The notes under the pieces are model-generated. The model did not search any database. It saw nothing but the letters and a program-made list of their open reading frames with translations, and was not told the origin of the DNA. A DNA stretch of 64,000 bases from Cliona cf. orientalis (taxonomy: Eukaryota > Porifera > Demospongiae > Clionaida > Clionaidae): positions 5,332,001 to 5,396,000 of the forward strand of contig OZ005702.1 in NCBI GenBank assembly GCA_963930775.1, read 5' to 3'. How positions within the stretch are numbered: position 1 is the first letter of the stretch; the number at the start of each line of letters is the position of its first letter. The position numbers and the translations under genes are program-made. Positions 10,851-64,000 of the stretch are shown one piece after another.

Positions 10851-11029
10851 TCAAAGCACCAGTATACTCGCGCGCGCATGCATCTCTGCTCGTTGTTCCC
10901 AGCTAGTATCAAATCTCGTCCACGTTTTAGTTGCAATTGTGAGTTACAGAATTATTGTCTGCTATTAGTTTGCTATTCATACGTGATACAACCACGACAT
11001 GTAGGTGAAAATCTGACGTTTTTGGAAGC

Positions 11030-18200: not shown

Positions 18201-19295
18201 GATTTGTGACCTAGTATTGTTTCTCATGGTCGATCAGTTTATCACAACTTTCTACATTTGTCGATTCAGGAGATGCTAGCTGCAGTTCATATATCTCAAA
18301 TGCCAGCCAGTGAGCAGATATCAACATTTGACTCCATATTCAATGATGCTAGTGCTCGGTTTAGTGCAGTGCTTCAGTTTTATGCAGCCATCACCAAGCT
18401 TCGTACATCAAGGCCTCTCCTCAGCTTAGTACCACATTTCTTGTGTCCTGTCCCTGCAAGTATTTATGATCTTATTAGGAAAATTATTCTAAAAGAATCT
18501 TGGATTTTTATTGGTCAAAAAAGCTCCAAGCCTTTTTTAGTTTCACTTTTGAACTGCTTGTATGAGGTTCAGGACACTGACTTATGTAAGTATGTAGGAG
18601 AACAGCTTAGCGACAAGATTTTATTTGTGGATAAGTCACTTGGATCTAGATCCAAGCTTTATCTTTCTGGTATGTCACTATTACCCCAAGACTGCCTCTC
18701 CATTGGCTACTTCCTGGCTTCCAATGCTATTAGTTATAAAGGCAAATTCTCAGTTAACCTTAGCACTTGTTCTCTGAGTGATACTGGCATAAAGATCCTC
18801 ATGCAAAGTCTTTGCAGGAGCCTGGATCCTCACAGTGAAATAACTGGTCACCTTGACATGTACATAGGCAAGAATGAGATCACTGGAGTAGGGGCTTCAT
18901 ACATAGCTGAGGCATTGAGAACTACTAGAGCACTGAGGAAGCTGGATCTATGGGGCAATCCAATTGGTGATGAAGGACTACAGTACATTGCAGAGGCCCT
19001 AACAACCAACATAACACTTACTGAACTAAATTTGTATGATTGCAGACTAAGAATCACAGAGGAGAGTGGTCCAACACTCACTGAAATGCTACAGAGAAAC
19101 AAGACTTTGAGACTACTTGACTTATCAAGGAACTATGCCATATCAGACAATGCAGCATCATTTATCATAGAGGGTCTCAAGAAGAATACTACTCTCAAAA
19201 AATTGTATTTATATGCTTGTGGCTTCACAAATGAAGGCATCTGTATGATTCGAAGTAGCACCTCAACATACAAGATACGTAATTATTTGGGATAA
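15208..19295 (+). pseudogene. Death-NACHT-LRR NLR pseudogene 3
   Basis: Two-exon copy of NLR gene 1 (exons about 15208-15509 and 16968-19295, intron with the same repeats). It is heavily damaged. In the Death exon there is a one-base loss then a four-base gain near 15331-15354 with a TGA between, and the Trp of LRTWRDK is TGA. In exon 2 there is a six-base gain creating TAA near the start and a two-base gain near 17355. About 60 bases covering VTSRP to the GFTAEEQ region are lost near 17700-17733, CGA became TGA near 17959, a piece of LRR of about 78 bases lies inside the NACHT-associated region (18089-18166), and there is a further gap near 18210. Walker A GAPGSGKST and DGWDE are intact. The LRR end (18258-19295) is open. 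Confidence 0.9.
18089..18166 (+). repeat. Ectopic LRR fragment inside pseudogene 3
   Basis: About 78 bases matching the LRR coding segment at about 18905-18982 of the same gene (ATAGCTGAGGCATTGAGAAC onward) replace a few bases between AACCTTTT and the AGTGACATAGA that continues the NACHT-associated region. Variants inside it (GTAACGGGC; GATAAAGGACTA) differ from the local LRR, so the donor may be another paralogue. Confidence 0.85.
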
Positions 19296-22213: not shown

Positions 22214-22520
22214 ATGGCATCTAATCCGTCCCCCGAAGTGAACGCCATCACGATTCGAACTCACGATCTTATGCTAGCATTGTCGAACGAAGCAGTGGGT
22301 GTGGCAGGGATGCTACTGAGCAAGGGATTCATTTCAGGGGAGATTTTGTCGAAGATGCTGATTGTCTCTTACACCCCGACAGAGAAAGCAACCATTCTGA
22401 TTGAAGCAATGAGAAATAAAATAGAGTTAGCCCCGTCAAAGTTCGCGGAGCTCCTTGAGAGTCTATCAGAGGTGGCGTGTGCTAAAGAAGTTGTGAAGAG
22501 TTTGCGCTCTACCTACCAAA
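22214..22520 (+). CDS. CARD-type NLR gene A, exon 1 (CARD-like domain)
   Basis: ATG in CTAAAGATGG. Residues about 15-100 read as a death-fold of CARD type: IRTHDLMLALSNEAVGVAG, GFISGEILSKML, TPTEKATILIEAM, NKIELAPSKFAELLESLSEV, then AKEVVKSLRSTYQ. I end the exon at CAA A before GTGAGT (22521), phase 1. Reading through gives a 131-residue ORF instead. The paralogue at 42758 has the same donor and phase, and the long exons at 29497 and 59087 both start in the matching phase. Joined to 29497 this gives about 2266 residues. CARD identity is from hydrophobic pattern and position; Death/DED cannot be fully excluded. Confidence 0.7.
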
Positions 22521-25181
22521 GTGAGTTGACTTCACTAATGCATGATCAGACGTGTCAGAGTAGTAGTGCTAGTCTTGCGCAGCTAGATACTTTATATCAC
22601 CGTAGATAATGGAGGGGGAGGAGACAAAGTACGACGGCGATTGCTCGTCACTGCACGCCCCCTTCGCGATGATAATCACAACTAGGGCCTTATGTCGCCT
22701 TATAGCCTAGTTGGGTTCGGGTTCGGGTTTGAACTTAGATCTATTACAGTCACGAGTGTGGGGAGGAATACCAACGTGAATTTGAACTGCCTTTTTTTTG
22801 TGTTACCTTGTATAAACCTTTGTGGAATTTATTTTCTATTGATGAGAGAACTCGGAAGTAAGTGCGATTGAGTAGTGTCTATGGCTGTCTATGCGCTTTA
22901 GAAACATCTGTGAGCTTTCTAGGGATTGCACTTGGGTCTGCATGCTTAATCAACAGCCCAAGTCGTACTCAGATTAAACTTACCTGAGCTTGTTTGGCCC
23001 TTATTGCGCTTGCTTTATAAAGAAGCACTGTATTTCAAGTTGTCGTTGCACTCTTTGCCTGTTGCTAGATCTATCGAGGCATTTAACGCAGGTCCCAGGA
23101 AAATACCACAAAGCCAAATGGCAGCTCACCTACAAATCTATATTTATTAAGAAAAGGTGCCTGTTTCTTTCTTCTTTTGACTTCAGGACCTCAGGCAACT
23201 TGGCTACAATGCACAAAGACTCTCTCGAGGGCCAAAAATATAGCCTTTGTTGTGTAGCAAGATTGTTCGATTCGCGAACATGACTGTGATGAGCATCCTC
23301 TATATACACGTACAAGCATTTCGAATCCCTTTCCCCTCTATTATCTATGATTTCACAGGGAGTGGGGAAGGGTTTGGCCAGAAATCATCAATATTCCTCG
23401 TGACTTTTGCACATACCAATATGTGTCGTCGTGGGGGGGGGGGGGGGGTGTCCCAGTGTAGTTGCTATGCTAAAGCTAAAAACGGCGGGATTCTCAAGGG
23501 TTCACTGTTGTACAGTAGCGGCCAATAAAAAGTTAATGTTCTGTTTCTATTCTTACTATTGTAGAACAGTGAAATAAACGAGAACAAAAATTTAATGGTA
23601 ACTGAACAGTACGGACAAAAGGTGACAAGCGTTCTTTTGGCAGGTGAGAGACGTTCTTAGCGAGCACAGTGCGTACTAAGATAGCCTTAGTCACCTGCTG
23701 CACTGGCTTCTATAATCGCTAGGCGACTCTACTCAGCTGCTTGCTGGAAGCCAAGCTGATATATGTAGCTCTTTTACTTAAGGCGATCGGTCAAACTACT
23801 TTGCGAAACTTACCTGGTGTCGACAAGATACAAAAATACAGCTTTCTTTTGATGTCTGCTATATTATCGAGTCGGTACGAGGGTTGGTTGTGCTTCTCTG
23901 TTGCTCACCACTTCCCAAAAACTTGTTTCTTCCACGCGACATGGAGAATGCCTACCAATTAAGCGTTCTCATGAATATAAAAACGCACACATGCGTACTC
24001 CTACGTATGTACGCGTACTGCAGAATGGTGAGAAAACGGAAATGCTACACCTCACGATCTTGCAAATAAAATGGAATATTAACTTTTTATTGATCGCTTC
24101 TGTAGTTTTGATCACTTATCCCATTCATATCGGTTTGGAGTAGGAATCCCGGGGGTCCACCCTTGAAAATTACCATCAAAGTTTTCTATGTAAAGTCCAT
24201 GGGGATAAAAGTGACTCAGCAATTTGTCTATGGCACGTGATGCTTTCGTACCTCCTCTGGGGTCTGGCTGTGCAGAACCAGATAGTTCTAAGAGTGGGTG
24301 TGGCTGGTACTTATGTTGTGATGTATGAATATCGTACATGTATTAATGCTGCTGACCTTGAACAGATTCCACTCCCCTCCGGTCATGCTTGTATTATTTT
24401 ACCAAAATTCATGAACAAAAATTATTCATGATGTCAAACTCCCACGCCTTTAGTATCACCATGATTCTTGTACTCTAACAATGAGTAGCTGTAAGGAAAT
24501 GTATTATGACATTCAGTCTGCACTAAGCCCTCCCTTTCTCCAGTTTGTGGCTGCTATATATTGACCATAATTATGGAGGCGTGACTGCAGTAAACGTGCA
24601 TGACAAGTAAGGTTAATTGCTGGCTACTCATGTACTGGTATTATACTAAGATTATAGTTGTCTGTCTGTGACTTACAAGCAGAAGGTGACAGGAAGCGAT
24701 TCGACCCGAGCCAGAACGTTTTCTTTTCCGGTATCACTGGAATTGTGACGCTATAACAGATAGCCCACTGATATGACCGGCTATGGCCCCAGCCGCCACT
24801 AATGACGGCGGGACAGAATTAGATTGAAATGTACGCTTACATATGGTGGCCTGGTGAACGCAAAAGAGCAGCGTTCTGGAATCGATATTGTCCACAGGTG
24901 TTTTCCAGAAAGAGGGGACTCTATTCTAAGCATCTTCTCTTGGGATCGAGCCTTTGCTTTGGGGACACACTAGCTGGACTGTATAAGTAGACTAGCTACA
25001 CAATATGTGGGTACATCCAGTTCGTGTCCAAGGCGTAGCATCCTCGATACAGATGGCCGAATATCATGATCAACCACAGAAATTTAGTCAAATCATTTCC
25101 AACTCTCTGGATAACCTGATGCGAAGACTACTGAGGCTCTCATACTTCAGCTGGAAGCATAATATATCACCAGTGGTGTAG

Positions 25182-25376
25182 CAGGGTTCTCCCCACACTG
25201 GTCGGGAGTGGTCAGCTCCAACCACCTCTCAGCAATTTTACCACCTCTCAGGCTTGATTTATCACAACTCAGATGGTAAAAGGTGCTGAAATCTATTATG
25301 TTTAATGCAATTTGACAGAACTTTTGCTCAAGTTTAACCATCACTCAGAATATCCTGGGGAGAACCCTGGTGTAGT
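25182..25376. mobile_element. Small foldback element
   Basis: AGCAGGGTTCTCCCCA at the left pairs with TGGGGAGAACCCTGGTG at the right. About 195 bases, noncoding. Confidence 0.55.
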
Positions 25377-27101
25377 ATAATTATTTGCTTGACTAATTAT
25401 TATTACCGTGTTAATTGCAATAATAATGTTATTATCATCATAATTATTATATATATTTAATAGCGTACTGTTATAGTATGAACAGCTCTATTATAATACT
25501 CACACTGTGATTACCGTACCCTCTTCAGAATAATATACCATTCTACTAAAGCATGGAAGAAGTTACATTTCATCAACTATCTTCATTGCTAAAATATGAG
25601 GCCAATTGCTCACCACTAAAAATTGTTTAACATGCATGCTACATGAAAATTTAGTCCTATCATCAATCCAAAACATAAGCTGACATCATCCCATTGTTTG
25701 CTCATGCAACCTAATTACCGGGTATCCAACAGCCACTTAGGAGCTCATGAACTAGGGGTGATAGGCTAAAAAGCTCTTTTGTTCTACTGGAACTCTCCAT
25801 ACCCACATATGTGGCTCATGGATATACGGGCAGTACATATACATGGTACTCATGATCCCAGGTCAGTTCTGGCAAATTTCACAGGGGAACACAGTAACAG
25901 AATTTTTGTGCCAAGGTCACTGATTCTGATTTGAAGCATCTAAGTCACTAACCGTGATACAGGTCTGGCATTGCCAAGTTTTATGTGGACAAAAAAGTAA
26001 AATTTAATCACAGGGGAGCAGAGCAATACAACCCAAATCCAAACCCACTCTGGTAAGTAGATTTTGTATTTGTGTGCAAATATTTAGGAACTTAAATTCC
26101 ACTTCCAGATAATGCAATAGTACATCATATCCGTGATGTCACGTTTCAATGGCATTCACAGCCAGACATGGAAGAAAATTAACACAACAAACTGGTCCAA
26201 ATGCAGGCCCAATGTCAGATGAGCTGGTGAGGATGTCACTCTGCTCCAACGTCATGCAATAGTATTTGTTTTTCAAAAGATTTCAACAGTGAACCTATTG
26301 CTGTCTATTTCGAGTCTTTGTCCATCGAGAGCTTGCATTATCAAGAAGCGAAGAAGGCAGAGGTGGCCAGCAAATATTATAGCCGAAAGGATAAACCAGA
26401 TTCTTGAAAACGTCATAAAGAATCTATGGCAATGCCACCTCGTTTGTGATATAAACAGGCATTGCCAAGGTACATAGCTGTGCATGCCAGCAACAGAATA
26501 ACTAGCTACAGTGTAGCTGACCCTGCTGTGCAAGAGCCGATCCAGTGTATACTGACTTCTAGTATGCTCTACGCTACTTCCCCTCACACACACACACTCA
26601 CACACACTGCCTACATGTCCCCACCCTGACAAAGCTCTTGCATGAAATGCTGCACGTAGGCAAGCAAGCTAACAAAAAGGGATGACCAGTTAGCAGGCTA
26701 TAATGTATGCTTCTCACTATAATAATTTATGCCCCCACCCTCATGATGTAACACGGTGCTGGGAAACTCTTGAGGTCAAAGTGTCCACGCATGATCATGT
26801 AATCTTCACATCTCGGTTCAGGTTGTCCAGAAAGCTAACATTGAGCTAGCCACAATTAGCAAAATCTGTAACATTACTATAGCAGTTGGTTGGCCACACC
26901 TATCAATTGCACTGCCAGTTGGTATTACTAAACTGCACATGTTCAAATTCAGTATAGTGTCACAAACTAATCTATTGCTTCTATAGCATTCAAGCAGATA
27001 TGTGCTCTAGAGAGGTCTGTTGTAGCATTACTATCTTCGTGCATTCTTGCAGTCGTGCCCTGATTGATCTGCGTTTGAGTAGTACCTAACACAAAATTAA
27101 C

Positions 27102-27463
27102 GAGTATAAAAACAATTGAATAAAATTGAAGAATGAAATAGGGATGGCAGGATAAAAAAGGAAACGAACAAGAGATAATTGCATCTAATATACATCCCTA
27201 CGCTTGCTTTTCTCGACTATTGTGCACCTATTAATCATGGTTGACATGTTTGTTAAGTGCTGTATGTGGGAGACATTCGTGCAGGTTGTTCCCTAGTTGT
27301 CATGATGGTTCGGGTTTATCAGTTTTGATTCAATCACATTATTACTGGCTAGTTTTGCACCCCTCAAAAAGCAAGCGCAGGGATGTATATTAGATGCAAT
27401 TATCTCTTGTTTGTATTCTTTTTTATCCTGCCATCCCTACTTCATTCTTCAATTTTATACTTG
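27102..27463. mobile_element. Foldback MITE, family F, copy 1
   Basis: Arms of about 100 bases: GTAGGGATGGCAGGA-type near the ends and AAGCAAGCG(C/T)AGGGATGTA inside, with inner text on GCATCTAATATACATCCC. Further copies lie at 53308-53646 and 63414-63816. The right outer end is shortened here compared with the 63-kb copy. Confidence 0.8.
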
Positions 27464-27724
27464 TTTATGTTCTTTTTTATTGCACTTAGTGTAATTTATC
27501 AATGCCATCTTACATGGTTTGCTCATAACTTCTGATTAAGTGAAAGATGGGAGGTGCACAAAATTCTTTGCCACGCCCCTCATTAACTTGCGTTCATAAT
27601 AATAATAATTATTATTAATGTGACAATTAGACGGCCCAAGTAGTGATGAGACTTTTCCGCTTAGGGAGAAAACCAAGTTCTATGTTTTACTGTTGGCAGC
27701 ATCTACGTAGCTACCCGGCATAAT

Positions 27725-28619
27725 TAACCCTCGGCGCATGCGCGAGGGTTACTGTAGTCGTTCTGTGTGTGTGTCTGTCAGTCTGTCTGTCTGTTAACTC
27801 GCTAACTGCTACATACCTTGTTTGCGAGTCTCAAGCACGGTGTTATGAGAATCTTTATGGCGTTTCAAACGCATGGATTGTGTGTATTTCGCTGAAGACG
27901 CTTTGTTCTCCAGTTCTGGCGACATTTGCTCAGGACCGCTAAGCTTCTTGACTTTCCTGCCAATGCACTCGTTTCTATTTACACGTAAATCATGCTACCG
28001 TATACACTATACTGTATACTAGACTGTACTATACACGACGTGACGTACATGCACTCTATAACCCTCGGCGCATGCGCGAGGGTTACGGTAGTCGTTCTGA
28101 GTGAGTGAGTGAGTGTGTGTGTCTGTTACCGCGCTAGCTGCTACATACCTATTTTAATCGTTGAAAACAAGGTGCCATTAGGCTTTTCGTCCTAGAAACA
28201 GTATATACATTGTGTGGATTTCGTTGAAAATGCTTTGTTCAAAAGTTCTGGCGACATTTTCTGACCACCACGGCCTTCTTCGCTTCTTGTCGAGCTCTCA
28301 CTCCATGAAAGAGACAATAGCCGCTTCATTTCAAGAAGATTAGTGTGTAGCTCAAGCGATAGTTCTTATTACTGGACTGACTCATCACTAGTCACAGTAG
28401 GCTATCAACTACGCTTCTTGGCTTTACTTTGTACTAGATCTGCTGATCTGGCATGCACGTGGTACTATATATTACGTAATGCCGTGCAATCAGTAATGCA
28501 TTCTTGTGGTTATAGTTACTACTGCTAACAGCAACGGTAGTGCTGCAGGCTTCAGCTTGCACATTTGCAACATGTAGACTAGTCACTACTGCAATAAATC
28601 TCACAGCGCCGAGGGTTTA
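27725..28619. mobile_element. Palindrome-ended elements, two in tandem
   Basis: Each begins with the near-palindrome CCTCGGCGCATGCGCGAGG followed by GTCTGTCTGT-like repeats and GCTACATACC (27725 and about 28059), and the block ends with CGCCGAGGGTTTA at 28619. The duplicated locus at about 54115 reads straight across without it (CCCGGCATA then TTTTTATGATCTG), giving an empty site. A reverse copy lies at 38494-38804. Confidence 0.75.
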
Positions 28620-29496
28620 GCACCAATGGTGTTCATTTATGATCTGTACTACGTTCAATACCACTGCTCGAGCCTTGTTCCTTCGTATGATGGTATAATA
28701 TCTATGACCGATCCAGCGTAGCACTAGGGCTGCAAGCGCTAGCGAGCTAGTAGCTCGCCTATGCCTAGCGCCTTACCGCTCCTCGAGCCTTGAACCTTCA
28801 CTAGTATCCATGATCGGCCCAGTGTGCCGTTGCACGTGCTAGCGATGTACGAGCTAGCTCGCCTAGTGTGTAGGCCAAGGGCCTAGGGGGCCAGTCGCTG
28901 TTACATGACTTCACCATGGCAACATATTTCAAGCATGTGCATTATTATCATAAAATGGCGTATTAGACACACCCTTCAATAATGCGCCGTACACACCCAC
29001 TATTACGTAACTGTCGAGATAAGGCCAAACTAGCGTGCCACTGCACTGCGCGCTACAAAATAGAGTGGATTTATGCTCAAAATAAGATGAGCGGTGGAGG
29101 CAGTCTTGAGTTAGCCCTGGAAATGAGAAAGAAAGAAAGAAGAAAGAAAGATTGACAAATGGCCTATTGTTTGAATATCTGGTTCTGACGTGTACAATTG
29201 TTTTGATGAATGATCTTGGTCTTGTTAGATGCACAATTTGCTGGAGATTCTGATTTTCATACTTAGAAATTGCACAAATTACCTATTTTGAGATATTTGG
29301 GTATTTGTAATGTATTACATATATGGCATATCCGGGCCATCCCTACTTATAGAGACTCTATGAGATACAAAAATCAGAACACTGAGTTATCCTTTGTTAT
29401 ACATACATGTAAATTATTAGAAATGTTTGAAATTTAAGCCTAGCAATTCAGTTATATCGCATGATATGCATTCCCTTTTGGAATATTTTGGTTTAG

Positions 29497-32400
29497 ATCA
29501 ACTGGACCAAGTTAATGACGGAGGCAGTCATGAATCAATGGACATAGCCAGCAAAACTGAAACTTTAGAAGATAGGTTTGATGATCTTCGAACTAGAATT
29601 AGAAGTGAATTATCTACTAAGCCTGGTATAAATGCAAAAGAAGTATTGAGCAAATTAACATGTCTACCACTGTTGTTGAAGAAAGAATATGAATCATCAA
29701 TAGAGAAATGCATTCACGAAATGCGAACTGAGACACAGATTGATGATCTATTCATTGTTCACCTCAATCCTCTCACGTCGTTTATAGACTATGGATTGAT
29801 TGAATATGTTATAATGAAATTTGGTAGTGATGACTTAAAGCGAGATATGCGGTCCTATTGTAGTGAAATGATAGAGTTCATGAAGGAGACAACAATTAAA
29901 CAGTTAATAGATCATTTGCCTGGCCAAACAGAAATTCCACCAAAATTTTCTCTAATAGAAGCCAAAATTGGTGAAGATGCTAGCAAGTGTATGTTAGAAC
30001 ATTTTAATAACATTAGAAAGAGATACTGCAGTGAAATACAGCTGTCAGACATCATCTTTCATCTGGTGGCAGTTGTAGAGTCAAACTCCTTCATTGTTAG
30101 GTGGCTAGTACCATCAGCCCTTTTTGATGATATAGTGAAATCTACCAGAAATGTTGACCAAAGCTTCTACCAGGAGTACAAAATCACCTCCCTTACCCTA
30201 GATGGAATGTGGCTGCATGTGATTGAGGCTGAACTTGAAGTAATGTGGATACACATGAGCAATACAAAACTTATTGATCAGTTTCAGACTATGTATAAGC
30301 AAATTATAATCGAATTGAAAGTTCATAATACCCACAAAGGTGAGCTGACACAGTGTTTGATGAACCATCATCCAAATCTTCACAAAAAAGTGAGTACTTA
30401 CTTGAGTGGAGCAATCATAACTTTCCCTTTCCCTCCATCTGGATTCTTTGTAGATTTTGATATGCTTAGTATCATCATAGAAGAGTTTGGTAGTGATTGC
30501 TTAAGAGATGTGATGATGTCATACGGTAAGTTTATTTCAGGCTTTGTTAAGCAGTTGTCTGTACAACAGCTACTAGACTTGCCACCTGTTCCTACTGAAG
30601 ATCATGAAGGTTTTACTAAAGTAGAGTGTAGAATCATGGAGGAGCCTTCAGGATACACCTATGATAAGATTTTAAGTATCAAGAATTCTATCTGTGCAGA
30701 GACTGACTTCAGTGGATTTATGCTTACTATGAGCAATGTCCGACAACTACTAAGTGATTCATTTTTCATTAGGTGGCTTACTCCTACTCATTTTGCCCCA
30801 GATCTGATAGAATCTGCCAATCGAATAGATAGTGCATTTTATGTAAGAAAGAGCATAGCATCACTCTCTGTTGGCAACCAATGGGTGTACAATCCAAAAT
30901 TAATTCCATTTGGATTCAAACTAAAGGAGAAATACCAGCAGTCCCAGGGCTCACCATCTCCAGTTGAATGGATTCCTTCACCAACAAACAAAATATTCCA
31001 ACTAGCTATGATCCAGAGAGAGACAGTGCAACGAGGTCATATTGAAGACAGATTTGTACGAATGACCATCAGTGGTAGGGTAGATGATATTCTTTATGCT
31101 AAATCTCCAGTGGAACTTACGGACATCTTCAGAAACACACTACATGGAGGTGAGATCATTTTGATTGAAGGAGCCCCAGGGTCTGGCAAGAGTACTCTAA
31201 CAGTCCACATCTGTCAGAGATGGGGCAAAGGAGAGTTATTTCAACAATTCACTGTTGTGATCCTTGTCCAGTTACGAGACCCAGCAGTGCAAAGAGCACA
31301 GACAATAGCTGACCTGCTTCCTGTTGAAAATGCTGAGGAAATAGCTGCTGAATTAATAGCCATTAATGGACGTGGTGTCCTGTGGGTCCTTGACGGGTGG
31401 GATGAGCTCCCACCTCACCTACAGCAAGACTCCATATTCCATCAACTTTTACGACCGAAAGTTAGTGAAGAAAAGTTGAAAGAGATTCGAGAAAACCCCT
31501 TATATGCTGAGTATAATAGCATAATGTTTTGGAAAGTGTATCTCCAAAATAATCCCAGTTTGCTTTCAGAGTGTTCAGTAATAGTCACCTCTCGTCCAAT
31601 TTCATCAGGTGACCTACACCCAGTGGTCTCTTCACGAATTGAAGTGTTGGGGTTCACCCCAGAGGAGCAAAGGCAGTACTTCGCTGACTGTCTCAAGGGA
31701 GACACCAAAGCTTTAGAAGCCCTACTTGAGAAGATCCAAGAGAACCCTATGGTACAAAGCATCTGCTACCTTCCACTCAATGCTGCTCTCATAGTACACA
31801 CTTTCAAATACAGGGATCAATCACTACCCAACACTGAGTATGAGATCCACTTATCAGTCATTCTCAGCTGCATTCAACGCCATTATGACAGGGAGGGCAT
31901 AGGTCATGACCTACCTAGAGAGCTATCATCTTTAGATGATCTTTTCAGGAGTGAAGCAGTGAGAGAGCCTTTTCAGTGTCTCTGTGAGCTTGCCTATCGT
32001 GGTGTGATGGAGAACAAAGTGACCTTCTCTTCCAGTGACTTGCCTCAAGGATCCAACACACTTGGTCTTCTTCAAGCAATAGAGAGCTTTCTCCAAAGAG
32101 GAAAGTCAGTATTCTATAACTTCCTTCACCTATCAATCCAAGAGGTCTTGTCAGCCTATTACATAACCACACAGTTGTCAGATAGTGAGCAGGTGTCTCA
32201 ATTCCAGCAGTTGTTCAACCAGCCTCGTTTTGCTGCTGTATTCCAGTTTTATGCTGCCATCACCAAGTTGAAGAGTCCAGGGATACGCCAAGTTATCAAT
32301 AGAATAGTAGAAGCCAAGTCCAAGCCTCTCTTAGTGCCTCTTCTTCACTGCTTATACGAGGCTCAGGACCCTGCCCTCTGCCTTTATGTAGCTGAGAGAC

Positions 32401-35400
32401 TACAATATAAGCTACATCTTAGTAGAATTTCACTCAGTCCACTGGACTGTCTCTCTGTTAGTTTTTTCCTTTCCTCTCTTACTGGTAAGGAAACCAGTGC
32501 TCACCTTGATCACTGCACTATTCGTGATCTTGGTGTAAAGTGCTTGTCAAAGTATCTACATACAGAAAATAATCTGGACTATGTCAGTAAAGTAACCATT
32601 GATCTTTCTGGAAATGAGATTCATGAAGAGGGTGCTTTGTATATTGCTAGGATGCTTTACTTTATTGAACATCTATACTTATTTAGTAATCCAATTGGAG
32701 ATACTGGAGCATCCGTGATACTTAAAGATGTAAGAGAAGCTGCTACACTCAAGACTTTAAGCCTGAACTACTGTGGGATTACTTCAAGAGGGGCTGAAGA
32801 TATTGTAAGAACACTTAGTCGAAATAGCACCTTGGAAAAATTTGATATTGGTATGAATTATTTAATGGGAGATGATGGAATAAGCCACGTAGCTGAAGCC
32901 CTCAAACAAAACCATCAACTGAAGGAACTCTGGATTGGTGATTGTGGAATAACAGACAAAGGAGCAGCTTCTCTGGCCAGTGCTCTCACTGTCAACAACT
33001 CTCTCAAGATGTTGCATATGGGTGGATTTAAAGGAGCACTAACAGAGGATGGGTTATCTGAGATAGCTCGTTCATTACATAACAAATTAATGTTTGTGAA
33101 ATTAGCGATCCCTTTCAATTTTGGCTCTACTACTACTGATCGTTTAAGTCAGGAGGTCAATGAAGCAAGGAAGAAAAATGGACTCCCACCTATTGAAATT
33201 GAAGGCCGAACTGCAGCAAGAATTACTGATAATTCAGATGATACATTTGTTGGTGCTGGAGACGATAAAGTTGATGCTAAAGAAAATGAAGGTGATTTAC
33301 ACGAGGAGGAGGTACATGAAGAAGAGTGGCTTGCGCACAAAGTGGAGGAGTGGCTTACGTTTGAAGAGGAGCATCTTGCACAAGAGGAGGAGGTACAACT
33401 CACACAAGAAGAGGAAACACATCTAATTGCTATTGAAAATGCTATCACAGAAACAGGTATGCTGGATCATACCCTTGTTCACGGCGTCTTTGTTGGACCA
33501 CCAAGATCTGGTAAAGATTCTATAATGAAGCACCTTTTAGGGCAAGCTGCCTCTAAAATTTCACCCAGCACTGGTCCAGGAGCTGCTGAAACTGCAATTC
33601 ATGTAAAAGTAGAGGAGTCTTGTACCTTTGCAGCCACAGTCGGGCAATCAAACTGGACTAGACTAGAATATGATGAAGAGGCTCTTCATTTATTGAAAAC
33701 AACATCAAACAATAGCTCGGTTACTTGTCCAATTGAAGGAAAGGAGTCTACTGATACTCAGATAGCAGACCCACCTTCAGCTGTGAGGGAGAGCTCATCT
33801 GATAATTCACAAAAGACGTCTCTGCATAATATTATGCAGACAGAGAGTACTTTAGAAATCCAGCCAGAAATTGATTCTCAGCCTGAGAATAAAGTTCCTG
33901 TTCAGATGAATAAAATTGAGCAAATACATCAGAAAATCAAGCATAAGACTCCTATTGAGATTTTTAAGGAAGCCATTAAAAAGAAAGGTTTGGAAGGTAT
34001 TCAAAAGCAACTCACTAACTCATGGTCACTTTACCTCACTAACACTGGAGGACAAATGGAATTTCAAGAGCTCTTACCTCTATTAGTATCTGGTCCATCA
34101 ATGTTCTTTATCACTTTTCAACTGCATATAGGTCTTAACGAACGTTTCCAAGTTGAATATGAACTTCCCAGTGGAGAATCATCAAAGTGCTATGAGTCCA
34201 GCCTCAGTATACTAGATTCAATCCTTCAGACTCTTTCAACAATTGCAGCAATGGGCACATTTGTTTACAAAGGATTGCAGAAGGAGTGTGTTCCTCTGAC
34301 ACCAAAGGTGTTTCTGATCGGGACCCACAAGGACCTCCTTGACAAGAAATCTGCAGCTACTATTATCGATAGAATTGATGCTCAACTACAAACAGTTATA
34401 AAATTAACTTCACATTATCGTGAAGGGATTATTCAATTTGCTTCAAAGTCTCGCATGATATTTACTGTAAGTAATCTCGATCCTAGTGATTCTGATTTTC
34501 AAGCTATCCGATCTGCCGTTGAAGAAACAATAAACGCAGGAGACTATAAAATGAAATCCCCCGCCCACTGGATGATTTATAGCCTTGTGGTGCGGCAGCT
34601 TCAAAACCGAGTTGAATCATATGATGAATGTTTTGCAATCGCTAAGGAGTGTGGAATAAAGGATAAAAATGAATTTGATGAGGCACTTCATTTCATTCAC
34701 ACAAAAATGGGTCTTGTCCGATATTTCCCTCATGAAGAATTGAAAGATAAAATTGTCATAGTGGATCCCCAAATTCTATTTGAAAAAGTGACAGAACTCA
34801 TTGTTGAAACATTCACATTTAAAAATCTTCGTAGTGATCATTTCAAGCTAGAAGCCTTTGAACGCCAGGGAATTTTTAATTTGAGTGACTTTATGAAAAT
34901 CAGCAGCCGAACCGGTCAGAAATTGACACCAACTCTCTTTGCTACAGTGTTGGAATATCTTCGAATAGCTGCTCGATTTCAACAAGGTGGAGAGACCAAA
35001 TATTTTTTGCCTTGTGCACTTACCCATGCTCCAGAAAAGAAGAATGTTTCCAGCTCAACAATACCACAATTGATAGCTACATTTCAGTGTGGTTACTGCC
35101 CCAAAGGTCTTTTTGGCACCTTAATCACATTCCTTATCAATAATGAAATGCAATCAGATATTGAATGGGAACTCGATACAGATAATGTCTATAGAGATGA
35201 AGTATGCTTTCAAGTTGGTCCTTATGATACTGTTACTATCAGATTCATGCCAACACACCTGCAAATATCATGTGCTGAATCCAATCCTGATTTACCACGA
35301 ATCAATTGTACACAAGAAGACGTATGCCAAGAGGTACGTGAATCGGTAGAGAAAGGTATCAAGACAGTCACCTCTGACATAAATTATATCAATGCTCAAC

Positions 35401-35990
35401 ATTCATTCACTTTCTACTGCACATCTGATGTTTGCAGTGAAGATCCTCATCCATCCAAGCTGAAAGAGTTCAAGGGAAAATTGTGTAGTCTCAAGTGTGA
35501 AAAACTGAAGAAGCCCTTTCCCTTACCTTCAGGATATGAAAAATGGCGATTGTGCTCAATGACAACCAAGGAATGCCATAGTCTGAAAGAAAGACTCAAT
35601 AAATGCCATTGCTCCTTTCTAGTCCAACAATTAAGTAGCTGTGCCTACAAATGGAAAGATATTGGCACACATTTGAAATTTCAGCAGGAAGAATTAAACA
35701 ATATCCTAGCCAATCCACTATTTATGAATGATGCCCCAACAAGTTGGTTGTCTGCGTTGGTATCAGATTGGCTGGAGTGGGCTCCAGGAGACAGCCGTGG
35801 AAGCACCAACTATGCCAATCTTGAAGATATAAAGTCTGCTGTATCCAAAGCTGGATTTGGTGTCGTTGCAGAGGAGCTATCACTTCCGCAAGAAGTAGCA
35901 GCTGAAGAAAGTAGTCAATCCAGTGACACCAGAAGAAAGAGGAAGTCTTCATCAGCAGCAGAAAGCTCAAAGAGACCTCATCTGTCTTAG
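29497..35990 (+). CDS. CARD-type NLR gene A, exon 2: N-domains x2, NACHT, LRR, Roc, COR, Death
   Basis: One exon of about 2163 codons. The acceptor is taken at TTTTGGTTTAG/ATCAAC because it matches the CARD donor phase and the 59087 paralogue; an in-frame ATG at 29466 is an alternative start. Residues assume CARD fusion. There are two copies of an unnamed domain (about 128-344 and 345-565; each with SFIDYGLIEY or GFFVDFDML, FGSD-L, and a WL(V/T)P motif). NACHT follows, with Walker A at 661-669 and DGWDE at 735, then LRR at about 1109-1314 and an acidic linker at about 1368-1411. Roc-like GTPase: GPPRSGKDS at 1436, NTGGQ at 1618, THKD at 1712. COR lies at about 1790-1960, then a beta-rich post-COR part, Death at about 2140-2230 (YKWKDIGTHLKF, WLSALVSDWLEWAPGD), and basic RRKRK at 2248. 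A cytosolic sensor with two NTPase switches. Exact domain edges are estimates. Confidence 0.9.
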
Positions 35991-37000
35991 TGATTTACCG
36001 ACTGATAGTAAAATGACCGCTGCTCATTAGTATAATTATTGTGGTATACACTGTGACATCCATCTAAAGTGGAAATTTTGCAGATACAAAAATCAATGAA
36101 GCAGTTTGTTTGTGTATCTGCATGAGTAAGAAAATTGGGAACTCAACCTCTAAAATGGAAAAAGTGTGAATTTTAAAAACTATGTCCCACCAGCTAAACA
36201 TTAATAACTGTCGGTATAGTGAGCTAGTCGGAAAGAAGTTGTAACCAGTAACCTTCCCTGATGTATACTATCAGTGACAAAGATTTGTCCTGGCCCAGCA
36301 ATATTATTTCTTTGTACAGTGTAGTGCTTCTCGTGTGAGCGTTAAAAGTAACAAAATTTATTGACATTGAAGTCTCAGAAACTATTAAGTGATGAACTAC
36401 CCTTTCAATTGTGTAAAAGACGGTTCTTCATCCACAATTTAACATCTGCTGACTCAGTATCCCAATCGTAAAGCATAGATCAAGGCACTAGCGGACAATG
36501 ATGGAAACACTGCTTTGATTATCACAAATTAAAATGTCATGGTGTTATTTATTAATAAATTTACTATACTGTTAGAATGTCAAAGTTGTCCAGCACAGGC
36601 ATTATAGCACTGATAATTGCGGATCACAATGGAAAAATTGGCCATTCGTGCATGTGGTGCTAAGATAAATATGCAAGATAGTCATTGAGCACCTGCAGAA
36701 AGTAAGCCAATCATGTTGATGTGTTTTAATTGTAATTATAGAGCCAGTATTAATCTTAAAAGCCAGAATGAAGCCAAGAGTATCCTTTACTTCCACTGGT
36801 GGACACCACAAACTGTGAGAGTGATTAACATGGCGAGACACATTTTATCAACAAGATAAAGTACATCTTAAAATGAGATAATTCTTATTATGAAGAGGCT
36901 TTTCACTTAACGAAATGATAGCGCTACAAGTTATCTAACTAAGTTGAAGGAGAAGAGTATGTAATATGTGAAGTATAGTAGTTTTGCTTATAGCACAAAA
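35991..37000 (+). other. 3' flank of NLR gene A
   Basis: AT-rich, no exon. AATAAA at 36554-36559 could be a polyadenylation signal about 565 bases after the stop codon. Weak gene-like sequence begins near 37,020. Confidence 0.4.
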
Positions 37001-37019
37001 GAGGACTGTGCATATCAGA

Positions 37020-37946
37020 CAGAAGGACGACAGTATATGCTTCAGAAAGCCAGTCAGAAATTGATCCTCAGCCTGTAGCCTTCCACGATGAAAGTTTGCA
37101 GCTAATATTATCACTCTGAGTATTGCATAAAACAATCATGTTTACACTAGCTATCATGAAGCAGAATGATAGCCTTGTGGTGCGGTAGCTTCAAGAGAGA
37201 TGAAAAGAGGTGCATTATTTCTAGTCCAATATTACCCTCACGAGGATCTGAAAGGTCTTGCCATAGTCGATTCACAAAATGTGATTCTTTTTGAAACATT
37301 CACATTATGAATAACATCTGAAAGAGTTATGCGTTTTCGAACTGGTCCAATTAAGTCTCCCTCCAAAATAGTTGGTAGCCAAATTCTCAAGCATTAGCGA
37401 ATAGCTGCTGCATTTGTGGAATATGACAGTATTTTACTGTGCATATGCTGTATATTATACCGTTAAGCTATAATATTACGATGTGGCAGGTGCACACTTC
37501 GGATTAGTCCATATCATGCTGTCTGGTCTTTACCAAAGCACCTGGGTACTGTGGAGAATGTGTGTAAGGAGAGACAGGAATCTGTGGGGAAAGGAATTAA
37601 ATTATAACTGCCGAGCATACAGTTATATTTTGCATGTCAGATTCTGAGAGCTGTAAAAATGGTCCACATCCAGCCAATCAATGATGATACACAGAAAGAA
37701 AATTGTGTACTTTACGTGTGTGATTCACACTAAAAAGATTCACTCCTTTGAAATTTGAACGACAGTTGGACTCCACTGAGGTATGCTGTAGTCACTGTTC
37801 CTCTTAATTTGCCGGCTATGTAAATTTGCAGCCAAGTGGCCAAGTGGAATGAAATGGCCCCTACATGAGAAGCTGGACATTGACAACCTAGAAGATGAGG
37901 GAACAGCCATGTGGCTGAGGCCCTCAGACATAACAATAAATTACAG
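37020..37946 (+). pseudogene. Decayed, scrambled NLR/Roc-COR remnant
   Basis: Short pieces match gene A in order: 37050-37078 (AGAAATTGATCCTCAGCCTG, the Roc linker), 37170-37310 (ATAGCCTTGTGGTGCGG, then GAAACATTCACATT, COR), about 37490-37600 (post-COR, with AGGAATCTGTGGGGAAAGG) and 37620-37690. Then about 37877-37946 resembles an LRR segment that should lie upstream, so the order is broken. Many stops. Old copy of a relative of gene A. Confidence 0.7.
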
Positions 37947-42757: not shown

Positions 42758-43070
42758 ATGGCGTCTTATTCATCCCCCGAACTCAACGCGATCACGATTC
42801 GAACTCACACCGATGATCTCGAGATAGCGTTGTCGAACGAACCAGTGCGCGTGGCAGGGATACTACTAGGCAAAGGATTCATTTCTGAAGAGACTATGTC
42901 GAAGATGCTGGTTGCCTCTTGCACCCAAACCGAGAAAACAGCTATTCTGATGGATTCGGTCCGAGATAAAATAGAGTTGGCTCCGTCAAAGTTCACGGAG
43001 CTCCTTGAGATTCTATCAGAGGTGGTGTGTGCTAAAGAAATTGTGGAGAGCCTGCGCTCTACCTACCAAA
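42758..43070 (+). CDS. CARD-type NLR gene B, exon 1 (CARD-like domain)
   Basis: Paralogue of 22214-22520: MASYSSPELNAITIRTH, IALSNEPVRVAGILLGKG, FISEETMSKML, TQTEKTAILMDSVRDK, ELAPSKFTELLEIL, then ESLRSTYQ. It ends at CAA A before GTGAGT (43071), phase 1, as in gene A. An in-frame upstream start at 42710 is disfavoured because gene A starts at the homologous MAS. Candidate partners downstream are the Death exon (50429) and the long exon (59087), both entering in phase 1. The distance, 16 kb, is long for a sponge intron but is explained by transposon insertions. The GTCACGTGA upstream of gene A is degraded here. Confidence 0.65.
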
Positions 43071-45239: not shown

Positions 45240-46460
45240 AAATAATGAAAAAATAACTAATTAAAGTAATCTCTTAAATGCATGTAGTGATGGAGCAGAT
45301 ACTTCTTCTGCAGATAGACTGTTCCACAAAGAAATAGAATTAGGTACAAATGAATATAAAAATGAGTTAGTGTGTGCAAGAGGCCGACTAAGAACCATAT
45401 GGTGAGATCTGGTGGAGTAATAGTGAGATGAATATACAAAAATATCTTGAGGGAAGTACGAGTGACCATACAAAATGTTATACAACTGACACAATTTTAA
45501 TTTAGTTCTGCGTTCTGCCAGAGAGGGTACTGCACATGTCTCCAACAACTGCTGGTACTCATGGTTCCAGTGTTTTGTAGCAATTTTGCATGCAAACTTT
45601 TGAACATTTTCTAACGCAGAAATATCCTTTTGTGTGTGGGGATCCCACAAGGAGCTGGCATATTCTAAATGTGGTCTAACAATGGATAAATAAAGTTGGA
45701 TGATAGTTTTACAATCAGCTAATCCATAAAAACGTCTGTATAGGAGCCCAAGGATACGTTTAGCTTTTGAACAAGCAATTTCAATATGTGAAGACCATTT
45801 CATATCGCTCGACAGCAATACTCCCAAATACTTGTACAGGGATACTTCACAGAGACTCTGTCCATATAGTTGAAGTGCATTACCAGGTAATAGGGGTGAA
45901 CGTTTTCGTGAAACAATCATATATTTGCATTTCTGTGGATTCAGAGACAGAAAGTTAGAGTCTGACCAGTGTTCAATCGCAGTGATGTCGCATTGAATTT
46001 TGAAGTAGTCAGATAGCACTGAGATTGGTCGATAAAGAATTACATCATCAGCGAAAAGCGAGAGGTTTGATCCATCAGCAAGTGGCAAGAGTGTTAAATC
46101 ATTAACATATATAATGAACAAAAGTGGTCCTAGAACGGACTACCATTCACAACAACCTGTTGCAATCTGCTTGATAGATAGTTCCATATCCATCGTAGGA
46201 TGTGCTCATTCAGACCAATGCTGCACAGTTTTTCCATAAGAGGTCCATGCGGGACACTATCAAAAGCTTTTTTGTAGTCGAAAAAGATGATGCAAATATC
46301 ATTACCTTGGTCAAGATTGTTTAGCCAGTCATGAACTGTGGCAATTAACGATGTAACTGTGCCTTTTCCTTCTGTGAAGCCCCATTGTCTATTTGAGAGT
46401 GGGAAGTGCTCCTCAAGATAGTCTAATATTACATGATGAACATGTCGCTCCAATAGTTTA
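45240..46460 (-). mobile_element. 5'-truncated LINE (CR1/Jockey-like reverse transcriptase)
   Basis: Minus-strand peptides: 46453-46130 has IIFFDYKKAFDSVPH and NYLSSRLQQVVVNG; 46121-45261 has VLGPLLFIIYVNDL, LFADDVILY (the FADD catalytic motif), LYKYLGVLLSSDMKW and HLEYASSLWDPHTQKD. The join near 46126 has a frame break and lacks the SGVPQGS segment expected between NG and VLGPLL. The endonuclease part is absent. It entered the hAT transposase gene in the same orientation. Dead copy. Confidence 0.88.
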
Positions 46461-52929: not shown

Positions 52930-53307
52930 CTGTCTATTACCAAGCTCTCCCCTCTCCCCATCACTCCATGAGATTCACAGTGAAGGGCTACCAAGGCCAT
53001 AGCTAGCTACAGGGACGTACAGATGGAGGCGCCCATCAGCGGTATGCTTAATGTACCATAAATTGGGAGAGTTTTATGTAATAAACCCTTCATTACAATA
53101 ATACTCACGTGGAATATTTTTTGTTGCCTGATTTCTGCATATCAAATTTGTTTCCACTGTGTAATTGTTTGATCATTGAAGTGACATCGTTCTCAGTTGC
53201 TCTGCATGAATATTATTATAGGCAGTCGTTGTATGGAGGGCAGGGGCTGCATTCTGGGTATTATGGTTGGTGGGGTTAGTCATCTATCTTGTGACTAAAC
53301 ATTAATA

Positions 53308-59086: not shown

Positions 59087-62000
59087 GCTTAAGTCAAGAT
59101 CAGGCGAAGCCAGTAGCTTGTGAGAAGTCAATAGACATTGTCATAACTATTGAGGATTTTGAACATCGTTTTCGCTCTCTTCAAAAGGAGATTCTTCGTC
59201 AACTAATTGAGAATAATGTAGACACTTTAACTGTAGTCAACTCTATTACACTGCTTCCAACGAAGCTTAAAAACGAATATGATAAAGTCATTCAAGATTT
59301 AATACCTTTCTTTTCGAACAAAGAATGCATAAATATACTTTTCTTTCGTCTTAATCCTCTACTTTCATTTCTTGATTGTGGGTTGCTTGAGCATATCATC
59401 AATGAGTATGGTGACGATACGTTAAAACAAGATATGACTACATATTCCAGTGATATAGTTACCTTCATGAAGGAGACAACAATTAAACAGTTAATAGAAT
59501 CTGATCATTTTTGTGGCCAACCCGACATACCACAGAATTTTTCTTTATTACAGGCGAGAATTAGTAAAGATACTAGCAAGTGTACTGTAGAACATCTTAA
59601 TAGACTTCGAAAGAAATATTGTAGTGAAGTGCAGCTATTTAAAGCAGTCTGTCATCTGGTGGCACTTGAAGAGTCAAACTCCTTCATTGTTAGGTGGCTA
59701 GTACCATCAGCCCTTGTTGTTAATATAGTGAAATATACCAGATATGTTGTCCAAAGCTTCTACCAGGAGTACGAAATCACCTCTCTTACCCTGGACAGAA
59801 TGTAGCTGTATATGAGTAAATCTGAGATTGATGCAATGTGGTCACAGGTGCACGTGAGCGACACAAAATTTAAAGATCAGTTTCGCACCATGTGCAAGCA
59901 AATAGTGTGTGAAATGAAAGTAAAAAATGTGACAAAGGATCATTTATCATCATACTTTCAGTCACTAAATTATCCACGGCAAACAAACGATCAGTTAAGT
60001 TTGGCACTTTTGGAAGAAGAATTCCCTGCATCGTTTGCAGATTTTGGAGTCCTTAAGGCTGTCGTAGAAGAGTTCGGTAGTGATTGCTTGAAGAGAGTGA
60101 TGAGATCTTATTGCAACTGCTTGTCATCAGTCTTCACAAAGGAATCGACTGCACAGCAGCTAACTGACATTGGTAATATATCTGCAGATTTTAAATATTT
60201 CAAAATAGCTCGATGTAGGATCATGAAAGAGCCTTCAAATTGTAAATTAGAAGAAATTCTCAGTTTTCGAACCAGATTCTGTACCACAACCAAGTTTAGT
60301 CAAGTATGCTTTATTATGGTTGAAGTCAACACAGAAACGAAAGGTTCATTCACTGTTAGCTGGCTTGTACCACAAACCATAGTCACAGACATAATGAAAT
60401 TTGTCAGAAATCTTGACCAAAGCTTCTACCAGGAGTACAAAATCACCTCTCTTACCCTGGATGGAATGTGGCTGCATATGAGTGAGGCTGAACTTGAAGT
60501 GATGTGGATACACATGAGCACTGCAAAACTTATTAATCAATTTAAAATCATATATGAGCAAATTGTACTCGAATTGAAGCTTCAAAATACTCCAAAGTAT
60601 GAGCTGTCACAGTGTTTGATGAATCAGCATTCAAATCTTCAGAAAGATGCAAGTACTTTTTTGAGTGAAGCAATCATAACTTTTCCATTCCCTCCATCTG
60701 GATTCTTTCTAGATTTTGATATGCTTAGTGTTATCATAAAAGGATTTGGTAGTGATTGCTTAAGAGACGTGATGACGTCATATTGTAAATTCATGTCTGG
60801 CTTTAGTAAGCAGTTAACTGTGCAACAGCTACTAGACTTGCCATCTATTCCTACTGAACGTCATAAAGGTTTTATTGAAGTAGAGTGTGGAATCATGGAG
60901 GAGCCTTCAGGATACACCTGTGATAAGATTTTAAGCATCAAAAATTCCGTCTGTGCAGAGACTGACTTGAGTGGATTTTTGCTTACCATGAGCCATGTCA
61001 GAAAACCACCTACTAGTAGTGATTCTTTTTTCATTAGCTGGCTTACTCTTACTCGCTTTGCTCCAGACCTAATAGAGTCTGCCAATTGTATAGACAGTGC
61101 ATTTTATGTAGGAAAAAACATAGCATCACTCTCTATTGGTATCCAGTGGGTGTACAATCCAAAATTAATTCCATTTAGTTTGGAAATAAAGAAAAAATTC
61201 CAGCAGTCCCAGGGCTCACCATCTCCAGTTGAATGGGTTCCTTCACCAACAAAGAAAGTATTCCGATTAGCTATGATCCAGAGAGAGGGAGTGCAACGAG
61301 GTCATATTGAAGACAAGTTTGTACGAATGACCATCAGTGGTAGGGTAGATGATATTCTTCATGCTAAGTCTCCAGTGGAACTAGAACACATCTTCAGAAA
61401 CACACTACATGGAGGTGAGATCATTTTGATTGAAGGAGCCCCAGGGTCTGGCAAGAGTACTCTAACAGTCCACATCTGTCAGAGATGGGGCAAAGGAGAG
61501 TTATTTCAACAATTCACTGTTGTGATCCTTGTCCAGTTACGAGACCCAGCAGTGCAAAGAGCACAGACCATAGCTGACCTGCTTCCTGTTGAAAATGCTG
61601 AGGAGATAGCTGCTGAACTAATAGCTACTAATGGACGTGGTGTCCTGTGGGTCCTTGACGGGTGGGATGAGCTTCCACCCTATCTTCAGCAAGACTCCAT
61701 ATTCCATAAATTTATCAAGAGAATGCTTAGTGAATGTTCAGTGATAGTCACCTCTCGTCCAATTTCATCAGGTGACCTACACCCAGTGGTCTCTTCACGA
61801 ATTGAGGTGTTGGGGTTCACCCCAGAGGAGCAGAGGCAGTACTTCACTGAGTGCCTCAAGGGAGACACCAAAGCTTTAGAAGCCCTACTTGAGAAGATCC
61901 AAGAGAACCCTGTGGTACAAAGCATCTGCTACCTTCCACTCAATGCTGCTTTCATAGTAAACACTTTCAAATACAGGGATCATTCACTACCCAACACTGA

Positions 62001-63358
62001 GTATGAGATCTACTTATCAGTCATTCTCAGCTGCATTCAACGCCATTATGACAGGGAGGGCAGAGGTCATGACCTACCTAGAGAGCTAGCATCTTTAGAT
62101 GATCTCTCCAGGAGTGAAGCAGTGAGAGAGCCTTTTCAGTGTCTCTGTGAGCTTGCCTATCGTGGTGTGATGGAGAACAAAGTGACCTTCTCTTCCAGTG
62201 ACTTGCCTCAAGGATCCAACACACTCAGTCTTCTTCAAGCAATAGAGAGCTTTCTCCAAAGTGGAAAGTCAGTGTTCTATAACTTTCTTCACCTATCAAT
62301 CCAAGAGGTTTTGTCAGCCTGTTATATAACCACAAAGTTGTCAGATAATGAGCAGGTTTCTCAGTTCCAGCAGTTGTTCAACCAGCCTCGTTTTGCTGCT
62401 GTGTTTCAGTTTTATGCTGCCATCACCAAGTTGAAGAGTCCAGGGATGTCCCGAGTTACTGATATAATAGTAGAAGCCAAATCCAAGCCTCTCTTAGTGT
62501 CTCTTCTTCGCTGCTTACACGAGGCTCAGGATCCTACCCTCTGCCTTTATGTAACTGAGAGATTAGAGTATGAGCTGGATGTTAGTGAGACCTCACTCAG
62601 TCCACTGGACTGTCTCTCTGTTAGTTTTTTTCTCTCCTCTCTTAATACTGATAAGGAAACCAGTGCTCACCTTGACCGTTGCACTATTGGTGATCTTGGT
62701 GCAAGGTGCTTATCCAAGTATGTATATGATTTGGGCTGTATCAGTAGAGTAACTATTGACCTCAATGGAAATGATATTCATGAAGAGGGTGCTTTATATA
62801 TTGCTAGGATGCTTTACTTTATTGAACATTTATACTTGTCATATGATCGAATTGGAGACACAGGAGCATCCTTCGTATCTGATGCAGCAAGAGAAACTGC
62901 TACACTCAAGACTTTAACCCTGTACGATTGTGGCATCACTTCAAGAGGTGCTGAAGATCTTTCAAGAGCACTAGCTCAAAATAGTTCCCTGGAGAAGTTG
63001 GACATTGGTGGTAATAATCTAGGAGATGAGGGAATAAGCCACGTGGCCGAGGGCCTCAAACAAAACAAACAACTGAAGGAACTCTGGATTGGTGGTTGTG
63101 GAATGACAGACAAAGGAGCAGCTTCTCTGGCCAGTGCTCTCACTGTTAACAACTCTCTCAAGATGTTGCATATTGGTGGAGCTAAAGGGGCACTAACAGA
63201 AGATGGACTTTCAACAATAGCTCATTTGTTAATCAATAGATCATTGTTTGTAAAACTAGCGATCCCTGGTATCTTTGGCTCTCCTACTGTTGATCGTTTA
63301 AATCAGGTGGTCAATAAAGCAAGGAAGAGAAATAGACTCCCAGCCATTGAAATTAAAG
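59087..63358 (+). CDS. CARD-type NLR gene B, long exon: N-domains x3, NACHT, LRR
   Basis: The acceptor GATTTACAG/GC gives frame LSQDQAKPVACEKSI; there is no ATG before 59383 in frame, so an upstream exon is needed. Three copies of the unnamed domain of about 220 residues (about 59140-59805, 59812-60480, 60490-61180), against two in gene A. The same pre-NACHT linker follows (EWVPSPTKKVF), Walker A GAPGSGKST at 61435-61461, LDGWDELPP at 61654, VTSRP, NFLHLSIQEV, and LRRs to about 63300. One in-frame TAG at 59803-59805 replaces the Trp of DGMWLH; the frame is otherwise open on both sides. At 63359 GTGAGT follows ATTAAAG exactly where gene A reads on into its Roc part, so this is probably an internal exon; unspliced it would end GESTVC and stop. 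Function as gene A, if the stop is skipped, read through or an error. Confidence 0.85.
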
Positions 63359-64000
63359 GTGAGTCTACTGTATGTTGACATGATGTATTACCAGTTTTCT
63401 ACGCATTATGTAACAAGTATAAAAACAATTGAATAAAATTGAAGGATGAAGTAGGGATGGCAGGGTCAAAAAATACACAAACAAGATCTGTAGGGATAAT
63501 GACATCCACTATACATCCCTACGCTTGCTTCTCTCGATTATATTCTTATCGACTTGTTTGTGCTCTCCTTCAGTGAGTGTTGCATGTGGGAGAAAACGTC
63601 CCCTATATGGCTCAAGATATATAATATAATCAATCAGCTTGGATTCAGTCACATTACCGGTATTTAGCACCCCATGCATAGCTATAATAGCTACTCAAAA
63701 AGCAAGCATAGGGATGTATAGTGGATGTCATTATCCCTACAAATCTTGTTTGTGTATTTTTTTACCCTGCCATCCCTACTTCATTCTTCAATTTTATTCA
63801 ATTGTTTTTATACTTGTTTTTGTTCTTTTTTATTGCTCTCAGCGTAATTCAGTTATCAATGCCATCTTACATGGTTAGCTCTCAATGGTCCATCAATAGA
63901 AGATGGGAGGTGCCGAAGTTTGTGCGTGCGTGCAAAATTTGTAGCCACGCCCCTCACTTTCCCGTGCCTGACAAACTAGCTGCCAATCAGTGCCATGAGT
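63359..64000 (+). other. Start of the next intron of NLR gene B, with family F element
   Basis: It begins GTGAGT. 63414-63816 is family F foldback copy 3, here with full outer ends (AAGTATAAAAACAATTGAAT and its reverse), followed by the same ATCAATGCCATCTTACATGG flank as copies 1 and 2. No exon before the window ends. Confidence 0.65.

Follow-up and report, generated by a model that had tools for sequence, protein, structure and literature searches.

The NACHT of NLRs is a nucleotide-gated oligomeriser that clusters CARDs, and the COR of ROCO proteins serves for dimerisation. In DAPK1 the Roc-COR unit is followed by a Death domain. The NLRC receptors (NOD1, NOD2, NLRC4 and the sponge NLRC) are built as CARD-NACHT-LRR. 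In the parts of the published surveys drawn on here, these elements are found in various combinations. For the sponge Dysidea avara (2026), 20 CARD-NLRs are counted and COR stands in the legend of the figure of bona fide NLR architectures, Fig. 2 (PMC12909245). Trichoplax has at least 17 ROCO genes, across which Roc-COR goes with CARD, Death, TPR, LRR and AAA-family ATPase domains; MFHAS1 carries its LRR before Roc-COR (PMC4104024). In anemones Roc/COR occurs either beside LRR and TIR or beside kinase, Death and TIR; in Aplysia its partners are TIR and LRR (PMC5094078, PMC9334734). Expansions of death-folds plus TRADD-N are described in Amphimedon, and AP-GTPase-COR proteins with LRR in bacteria (PMC8195603). 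A whole-word search of PMC11797021 and PMC6321704 (main text) gives neither COR nor Roc, and no COR domain appears in 12 of the 24 places in PMC8242945.

The locus described here, gene A, lies on the + strand of the window, i.e. the 64,000-nt stretch of Cliona cf. orientalis DNA that was analysed. We propose, with a probability of roughly 0.6, that the product of gene A is one large cytosolic NLR of NLRC type, CARD-N-N-NACHT-LRR, extended by a Roc-COR-Death tail and working as a two-ended scaffold. With the NLRC receptors it shares a CARD-like fold, a NACHT with Walker A and Walker B and a C-terminal LRR, but it adds two N-domains before NACHT and Roc-COR-Death after the LRR. The order of its ROCO-like tail is that of DAPK1 and its LRR precedes a putative Roc-COR like in MFHAS1; by contrast with these two proteins, the LRR of gene A belongs to the NLR, a NACHT is present and the Roc motifs are not canonical. 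The protein kinase and the ankyrin repeats of DAPK1 found no match in gene A (Pfam).

Compared with the other animal sets, gene A has in common with the D. avara NLRs the COR listed among their architecture abbreviations, as far as the legend goes (PMC12909245). Roc-COR occurs with CARD, Death, LRR and AAA-family ATPase across the Trichoplax ROCO genes, but the part of that study used here describes no protein that has both death-folds together with NACHT and LRR (PMC4104024). The Amphimedon TRADD-N proteins have a similar layout—one to three death-folds, a lineage-expanded domain and a variable C-terminus including LRR; however NACHT and Roc-COR are not named in the part of that source concerned, and the N-domains of gene A do not match TRADD-N (PMC8195603). 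The full order CARD-N-N-NACHT-LRR-Roc-COR-Death was not found among the literature matches listed. No relatives of the same order were found in viral genomes (IMG/VR, four query regions) or in prokaryotic genomes (two regions), where animal relatives are not expected, so that this result is no measure of rarity. An earlier note on this DNA had presented gene A as a candidate novel sensor; the claim of novelty is weakened by COR in the legend of the Dysidea NLRs (PMC12909245) and by the parts assembled in Trichoplax ROCO genes (PMC4104024).

The features on which the analysis relies are collected in Table 1. A single open frame of 2189 codons, with zero stops, runs on the + strand from 29421 to 35990; from the acceptor at 29497 to its end it counts 2163 codons, the very number given in the earlier note. 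That note had announced one long exon, unbroken from NACHT to Death, and the domain order CARD, N-domains, NACHT, LRR, Roc-COR, Death: the first is what the frame displays, and the second stands by profiles, motifs, fold and profile-profile comparison.

Table 1. Position of the features of gene A, of its surroundings and of paralogue B in the 64,000-nt window
Feature	Position	Strand	Basis or remark
CARD exon, gene A	22214..22520	+	ATG to donor CCAAA/GTGAGT; 102 codons plus 1 base
Inferred intron, CARD exon to main exon	22521..29496	+	phase 1
Main exon, inferred	29497..35990	+	frame open from 29421; 307 + 6494 = 6801 nt, in frame
N-domain 1, fold not recognised	29577..30236	+	no Pfam family
N-domain 2, fold not recognised	30237..30951	+	no convincing Pfam family
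NACHT	31155..31694	+	Pfam; Walker A 31170-31196, Walker B 31377-31406
LRR, main part	32661..33158	+	Pfam LRR_6, PDB sequence matches
Acidic LRR-Roc linker	33207..33458	+	coding signal continuous; without NGGTRRG donor-like site
Roc-position region	33459..34559	+	P-loop GPPRSGKDS 33495, NTGGQ 34041, GTHKD 34320
COR-A	34560..35015	+	Pfam
Remainder of COR, COR-B-like by position alone	35016..35540	+	inference; no convincing Pfam match
Death	35649..35882	+	profile-profile comparison, in-window match
Decayed colinear Roc-COR remnant	36886..37601	+	five short matches, about 0.9 kb after gene A stop
Paralogue B CARD exon	42758..43070	+	similarity to A's exon; donor
Paralogue B main part: three N-domains, NACHT, LRR	59087..63378	+	in-frame stop 59803-59805
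GTGAGT donor-like site in B	63359..63364	+	where A/B similarity stops

In the NLR half of gene A, the NACHT (residues 579-758) exceeds the Pfam cut-off with E 4.7e-18 and looks intact, judging from its Walker A (GAPGSGKST) and Walker B (VLWVLDGWDE); the LRR, C-terminal to NACHT, also exceeds the cut-off (LRR_6, E 1.4e-15). Gene A thereby shows two features of a bona fide NLR, a NACHT with both Walker motifs and an LRR behind it. In the search of PDB sequences, ribonuclease-inhibitor and NLRP3 structures came on top for the LRR and NACHT parts, the NLRP3 chains aligning to residues ~579-925; nothing better than E 0.11 was obtained there for the N-domains, the pair of CARD exons, the tail, the Roc-COR piece, the pair of Death sequences or the single ones. 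The NACHT of A contains an insert of ~30 residues (~31461-31560) that is absent from the paralogue B located downstream; we considered it as an intron, but the splice sites inspected by eye break the frame, and it is treated as exonic. Ahead of NACHT a domain of ~200 residues is repeated in tandem, in two copies in A (29577-30951) and three in B (59143-61170), which agrees with the N-domains formerly noticed. The TRADD-N and NCOA6 profiles did not match the five N-domain copies up to E 10 (Pfam, weak matches being mostly filtered out). A conserved Ser-Phe ahead of a Trp-Leu is only a lead to the nature of these domains.

The N-terminal CARD exon, also pointed out before, stands as well. No Pfam profile matches it; its AF2 model, built from the A and B sequences, nevertheless has a pLDDT of 83, with seven helical stretches, and resembles solved CARDs. 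In Foldseek the best E is 0.23 (probability 0.99) and no match reaches 0.001 or lower; among the best 50 of 52 matches, the first 22, and 43 overall, are CARDs, CARD-bearing proteins or a CARD-named design, as assigned from the title or the known nature of the entry. The CARD of Apaf-1 (1cy5) gives a TM of 0.69 to the model. On this modelled resemblance the exon 22214-22520 would encode a CARD-like fold, at the place of the CARD of NLRC receptors. Its junction to the main exon is a predicted splice, suggested by the phase and by a donor conserved in B: the CARD exon of B, 73% identical to that of A in protein, has the same donor and the same phase, and the acceptor at 29497 matches phase 1, giving 6801 nt, i.e. 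2266 residues and a stop. This acceptor is one among several acceptor-like sites, and further exons between the CARD exon and the main exon are possible.

Is the tail made together with the NLR? B is 74% identical to A in protein over their shared part, and at the DNA level the two remain similar up to 33205 in A and 63359 in B, just before the linker of A. Two genes or transcripts might then be imagined, one for an NLR that stops near 33206 and another for Roc-COR-Death alone, with its start within the frame, for instance at Met 1347 (33459), which lies directly ahead of the P-loop; besides, B meets a stop codon ~six codons beyond the divergence point. However, the linker keeps the full coding signal in the same frame. 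By codon-usage scoring, the linker and early Roc score 0.17-0.36 bits per codon in frame, against values between -0.10 and 0.12 for the two alternative frames; these figures come from six overlapping 100-codon windows (starts 33021-33771) wholly outside the training set, to which much of the remaining gene A frame belonged. Moreover the motif scan found no NGGTRRG donor-like site in 33100-33520—weaker GT sites are present within the linker—and, by a rough estimate, the chance that a linker of ~84 codons stays open in frame is well below 1 in 50. Two genes thus appear improbable. Because the codon signal is continuous in frame and NGGTRRG is lacking in 33100-33520, we conclude that the NLR half and the tail are predicted to form one coding unit. 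Nothing direct speaks for an artefactual join of two loci in the assembly, although the junction lies where the A/B similarity ends; the coding continuity in frame over the junction speaks against it, and we regard it as highly improbable.

The tail itself is of uneven clarity. COR-A (residues 1714-1865) scores 31.4 bits in the whole chain (E 2.1e-7) and 34.9 bits in a slice (E 1.7e-8), both just below the curated Pfam cut-off of 35.3 bits; the match covers profile positions 1-141 of 143, so that the COR domain expected of a ROCO protein is there nearly at full length. Roc is the weakest domain assignment in gene A. Its motifs come in the right order ahead of COR-A—GPPRSGKDS at 1359, NTGGQ at 1541, after a long insert, and GTHKD at 1634—but Pfam Roc matches neither the whole chain nor its pieces. 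MMR_HSR1 covers the P-loop with E 0.005-0.08, below the Pfam cut-off (whole chain and slices), and NCBIfam gives only weak P-loop matches, the best at E 0.03. Of the Roc-COR that the earlier note expected from profile search, COR is found and the Roc profile is unmatched.

The canonical forms of the GTP-binding motifs are GK[S/T] and DxxG. In gene A a D replaces S/T after GK (GKD) and an N the first D of DxxG (NTGG); the nucleotide-binding residues of an active ROCO GTPase are not there at these two places, and the Roc may be nucleotide-locked or inactive. Because of these non-canonical motifs, "ROCO-like tail" is a better name than "ROCO GTPase". The idea, formerly put forward, of Roc as a second switch beside NACHT is not supported, the Roc profile being unmatched and two motifs lacking a canonical residue. 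Given the degenerate motifs, a fixed scaffold or a bait appears no less likely than a second working switch.

The worn motifs and the intact NACHT are what would be expected if the tail were an integrated decoy, a copied host signalling protein exposed as bait, so that the NACHT-CARD half is set off when the bait is interfered with, rather than by turnover of GTP. Such a design has its model in the plant NLRs with integrated domains. The position of the tail after the LRR would fit, and so would its absence from the remaining four NLR loci in the window (B being seen to 64000) and the decayed Roc-COR unit that adjoins gene A. On the other hand GKD and NTGG could be normal in this family of Roc, the terminal Death evokes signalling rather than bait, and the interaction of the tail with any partner is purely hypothetical. 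We hold this reading unlikely. An equally doubtful, more explicit version would make gene A an animal NLR with a ROCO decoy: built by shuffling with the neighbouring Roc-COR unit, the tail would have lost normal GTP handling, would bait pathogen factors that attack ROCO-Death proteins, and, once disturbed, would fire the CARD end. If true, it would be an animal counterpart of the plant NLRs with integrated domains.

The terminal Death domain, which had been predicted from the start, is supported by profile-profile comparison, although Pfam matches it neither in gene A nor in the 50 kb copy (two sequences tested) and the plain HMM is weak. Residues 2058-2153 match positions 50452-50736 of the window with E 1e-7; weaker Death-like matches occur at 1797-1973 (E 0.02) and 11057-11233 (E 0.06), upstream of two other NACHT-LRR frames. 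Compared by hhalign with the death domains of FADD and ankyrins 1-3 (ANK1-3), the alignment is in register at the conserved Trp, with P 7e-4 (probability 26%) from two rows and P 2.7e-5 (74%) from four rows. None of 300 gap-preserving shuffles reached the score, with two rows or with four; free column shuffles reached it in 0/200 cases with two rows and in 6/200 with four, including one odd score of 139 attributed to scattered gaps. A plain HMM of the four death domains gives E 1.2 for gene A, a score equalled by 3 of 1000 shuffles (14 of 1000 for the 50 kb copy). The AF2 model is poor (pLDDT 65) without significant fold match in Foldseek, and the 12 death-domain entries among its best 50 of 54 matches, all at E 3.4 or worse, are not counted as support. 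On these comparisons gene A would end in a Death fold, placed after COR. The 50 kb match lies in a Death-like frame (50404-50850, +) within the inferred intron of B, with a poly-C tract near its end.

B displays no Roc-COR inside the 64,000-nt window. At the divergence point it reads AAAG/GTGAGT, and the + strand of the window has just one further AGGTRAGT site; B may splice onward beyond the window end, and A would then look like an intron-free join of both exons. Alternatively the stop past the divergence point may simply be the end of B. Such an ending is favoured by a poly-A signal at 63432, yet this signal is part of a repeat whose inverted arms lie at 63412-63530 and 63700-63818. B also contains an in-frame stop (59803-59805) between its first and second N-domains, and may be a pseudogene or an allele.

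Several other elements were observed in the window. A second NLR type is present in three NACHT-LRR copies (1743-2063 with 4441-6738; 11009-11272 with 11753-13954; 16951-19295), the pieces being 69-85% identical in protein to the first copy. Weakly Death-like frames stand upstream of two of the three (NLRD-like), and two are broken, by a stop (12917-12919, in the copy 11918-13954) and by frame changes (16951-19295). A MITE-like dispersed repeat with inverted arms of ~119 bases occurs at 63412-63818, 53304-53707 and 27098-27557; in the copy after B the arms are 96.6% identical. The inferred intron of B contains, on the minus strand, a reverse transcriptase fragment (45261-46139) and a zinc-finger fragment weakly matching DUF4371 (47773-48570), which are probably transposon remains.

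This neighbourhood raises the question of whether gene A is a recent fusion, intact but non-functional, in a decaying NLR cluster. The stop in B, the stop in the copy 11918-13954 and the broken frame of the copy 16951-19295 would go in this direction, as would the worn Roc motifs. But 2189 codons remain without stop, with a coding bias throughout, weak (0.075) only in the very last window, and dN/dS is below 1 in the part shared with B, a comparison that excludes the tail: for the 1193 codons compared it amounts to 0.48, for the NACHT region (94% DNA identity) to 0.33, and it exceeds 1 in 2 of 17 sixty-codon windows. As B has an in-frame stop, the selection measured between A and B covers only part of their history. 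We give little credit to a dead fusion.

The remnant behind gene A informs on the origin of the tail. Its matches keep the same order on the + strand (DNA E 4.6e-7, 5.6e-6 and 0.035; protein E 0.005 and 0.011), which suggests that a second Roc-COR unit once adjoined gene A. Such a neighbour suits a tail that arose through duplication nearby followed by fusion, but the same trace would be left if A had copied part of its own tail. In our preferred reading the tail comes, probably through local shuffling, from a Roc-COR(-Death) unit close to gene A.

Coming back to the two-ended scaffold, we imagine its function as follows. The LRR and the N-domains would keep NACHT closed; a ligand or a perturbation would allow nucleotide exchange on NACHT and oligomerisation, and the CARDs so clustered could attract a caspase or an adaptor with CARD. 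Pairing of chains would fall to the Roc-COR tail, as it does to COR elsewhere, and the paired tail would position the second death-fold to nucleate, or restrain, a Death-domain partner. The bridging of two adaptor systems by one molecule, which the earlier note had proposed, is likewise hypothetical.

The architecture of gene A is real and unusual, but it is a variant within the known domain shuffling of invertebrate NLRs and ROCO proteins; the combination was partly foreshadowed by sponge and placozoan surveys. If gene A makes one protein, its chain unites a STAND ATPase with a ROCO-like module and carries a death-fold at each end, a design that would let the second module be probed directly as working switch, dimeriser or bait. 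In plant NLRs a route of tail capture from neighbouring genes has been described; to our knowledge it has been little tested in animals. Gene A would suggest that NLR clusters can capture whole signalling tails from adjoining genes.
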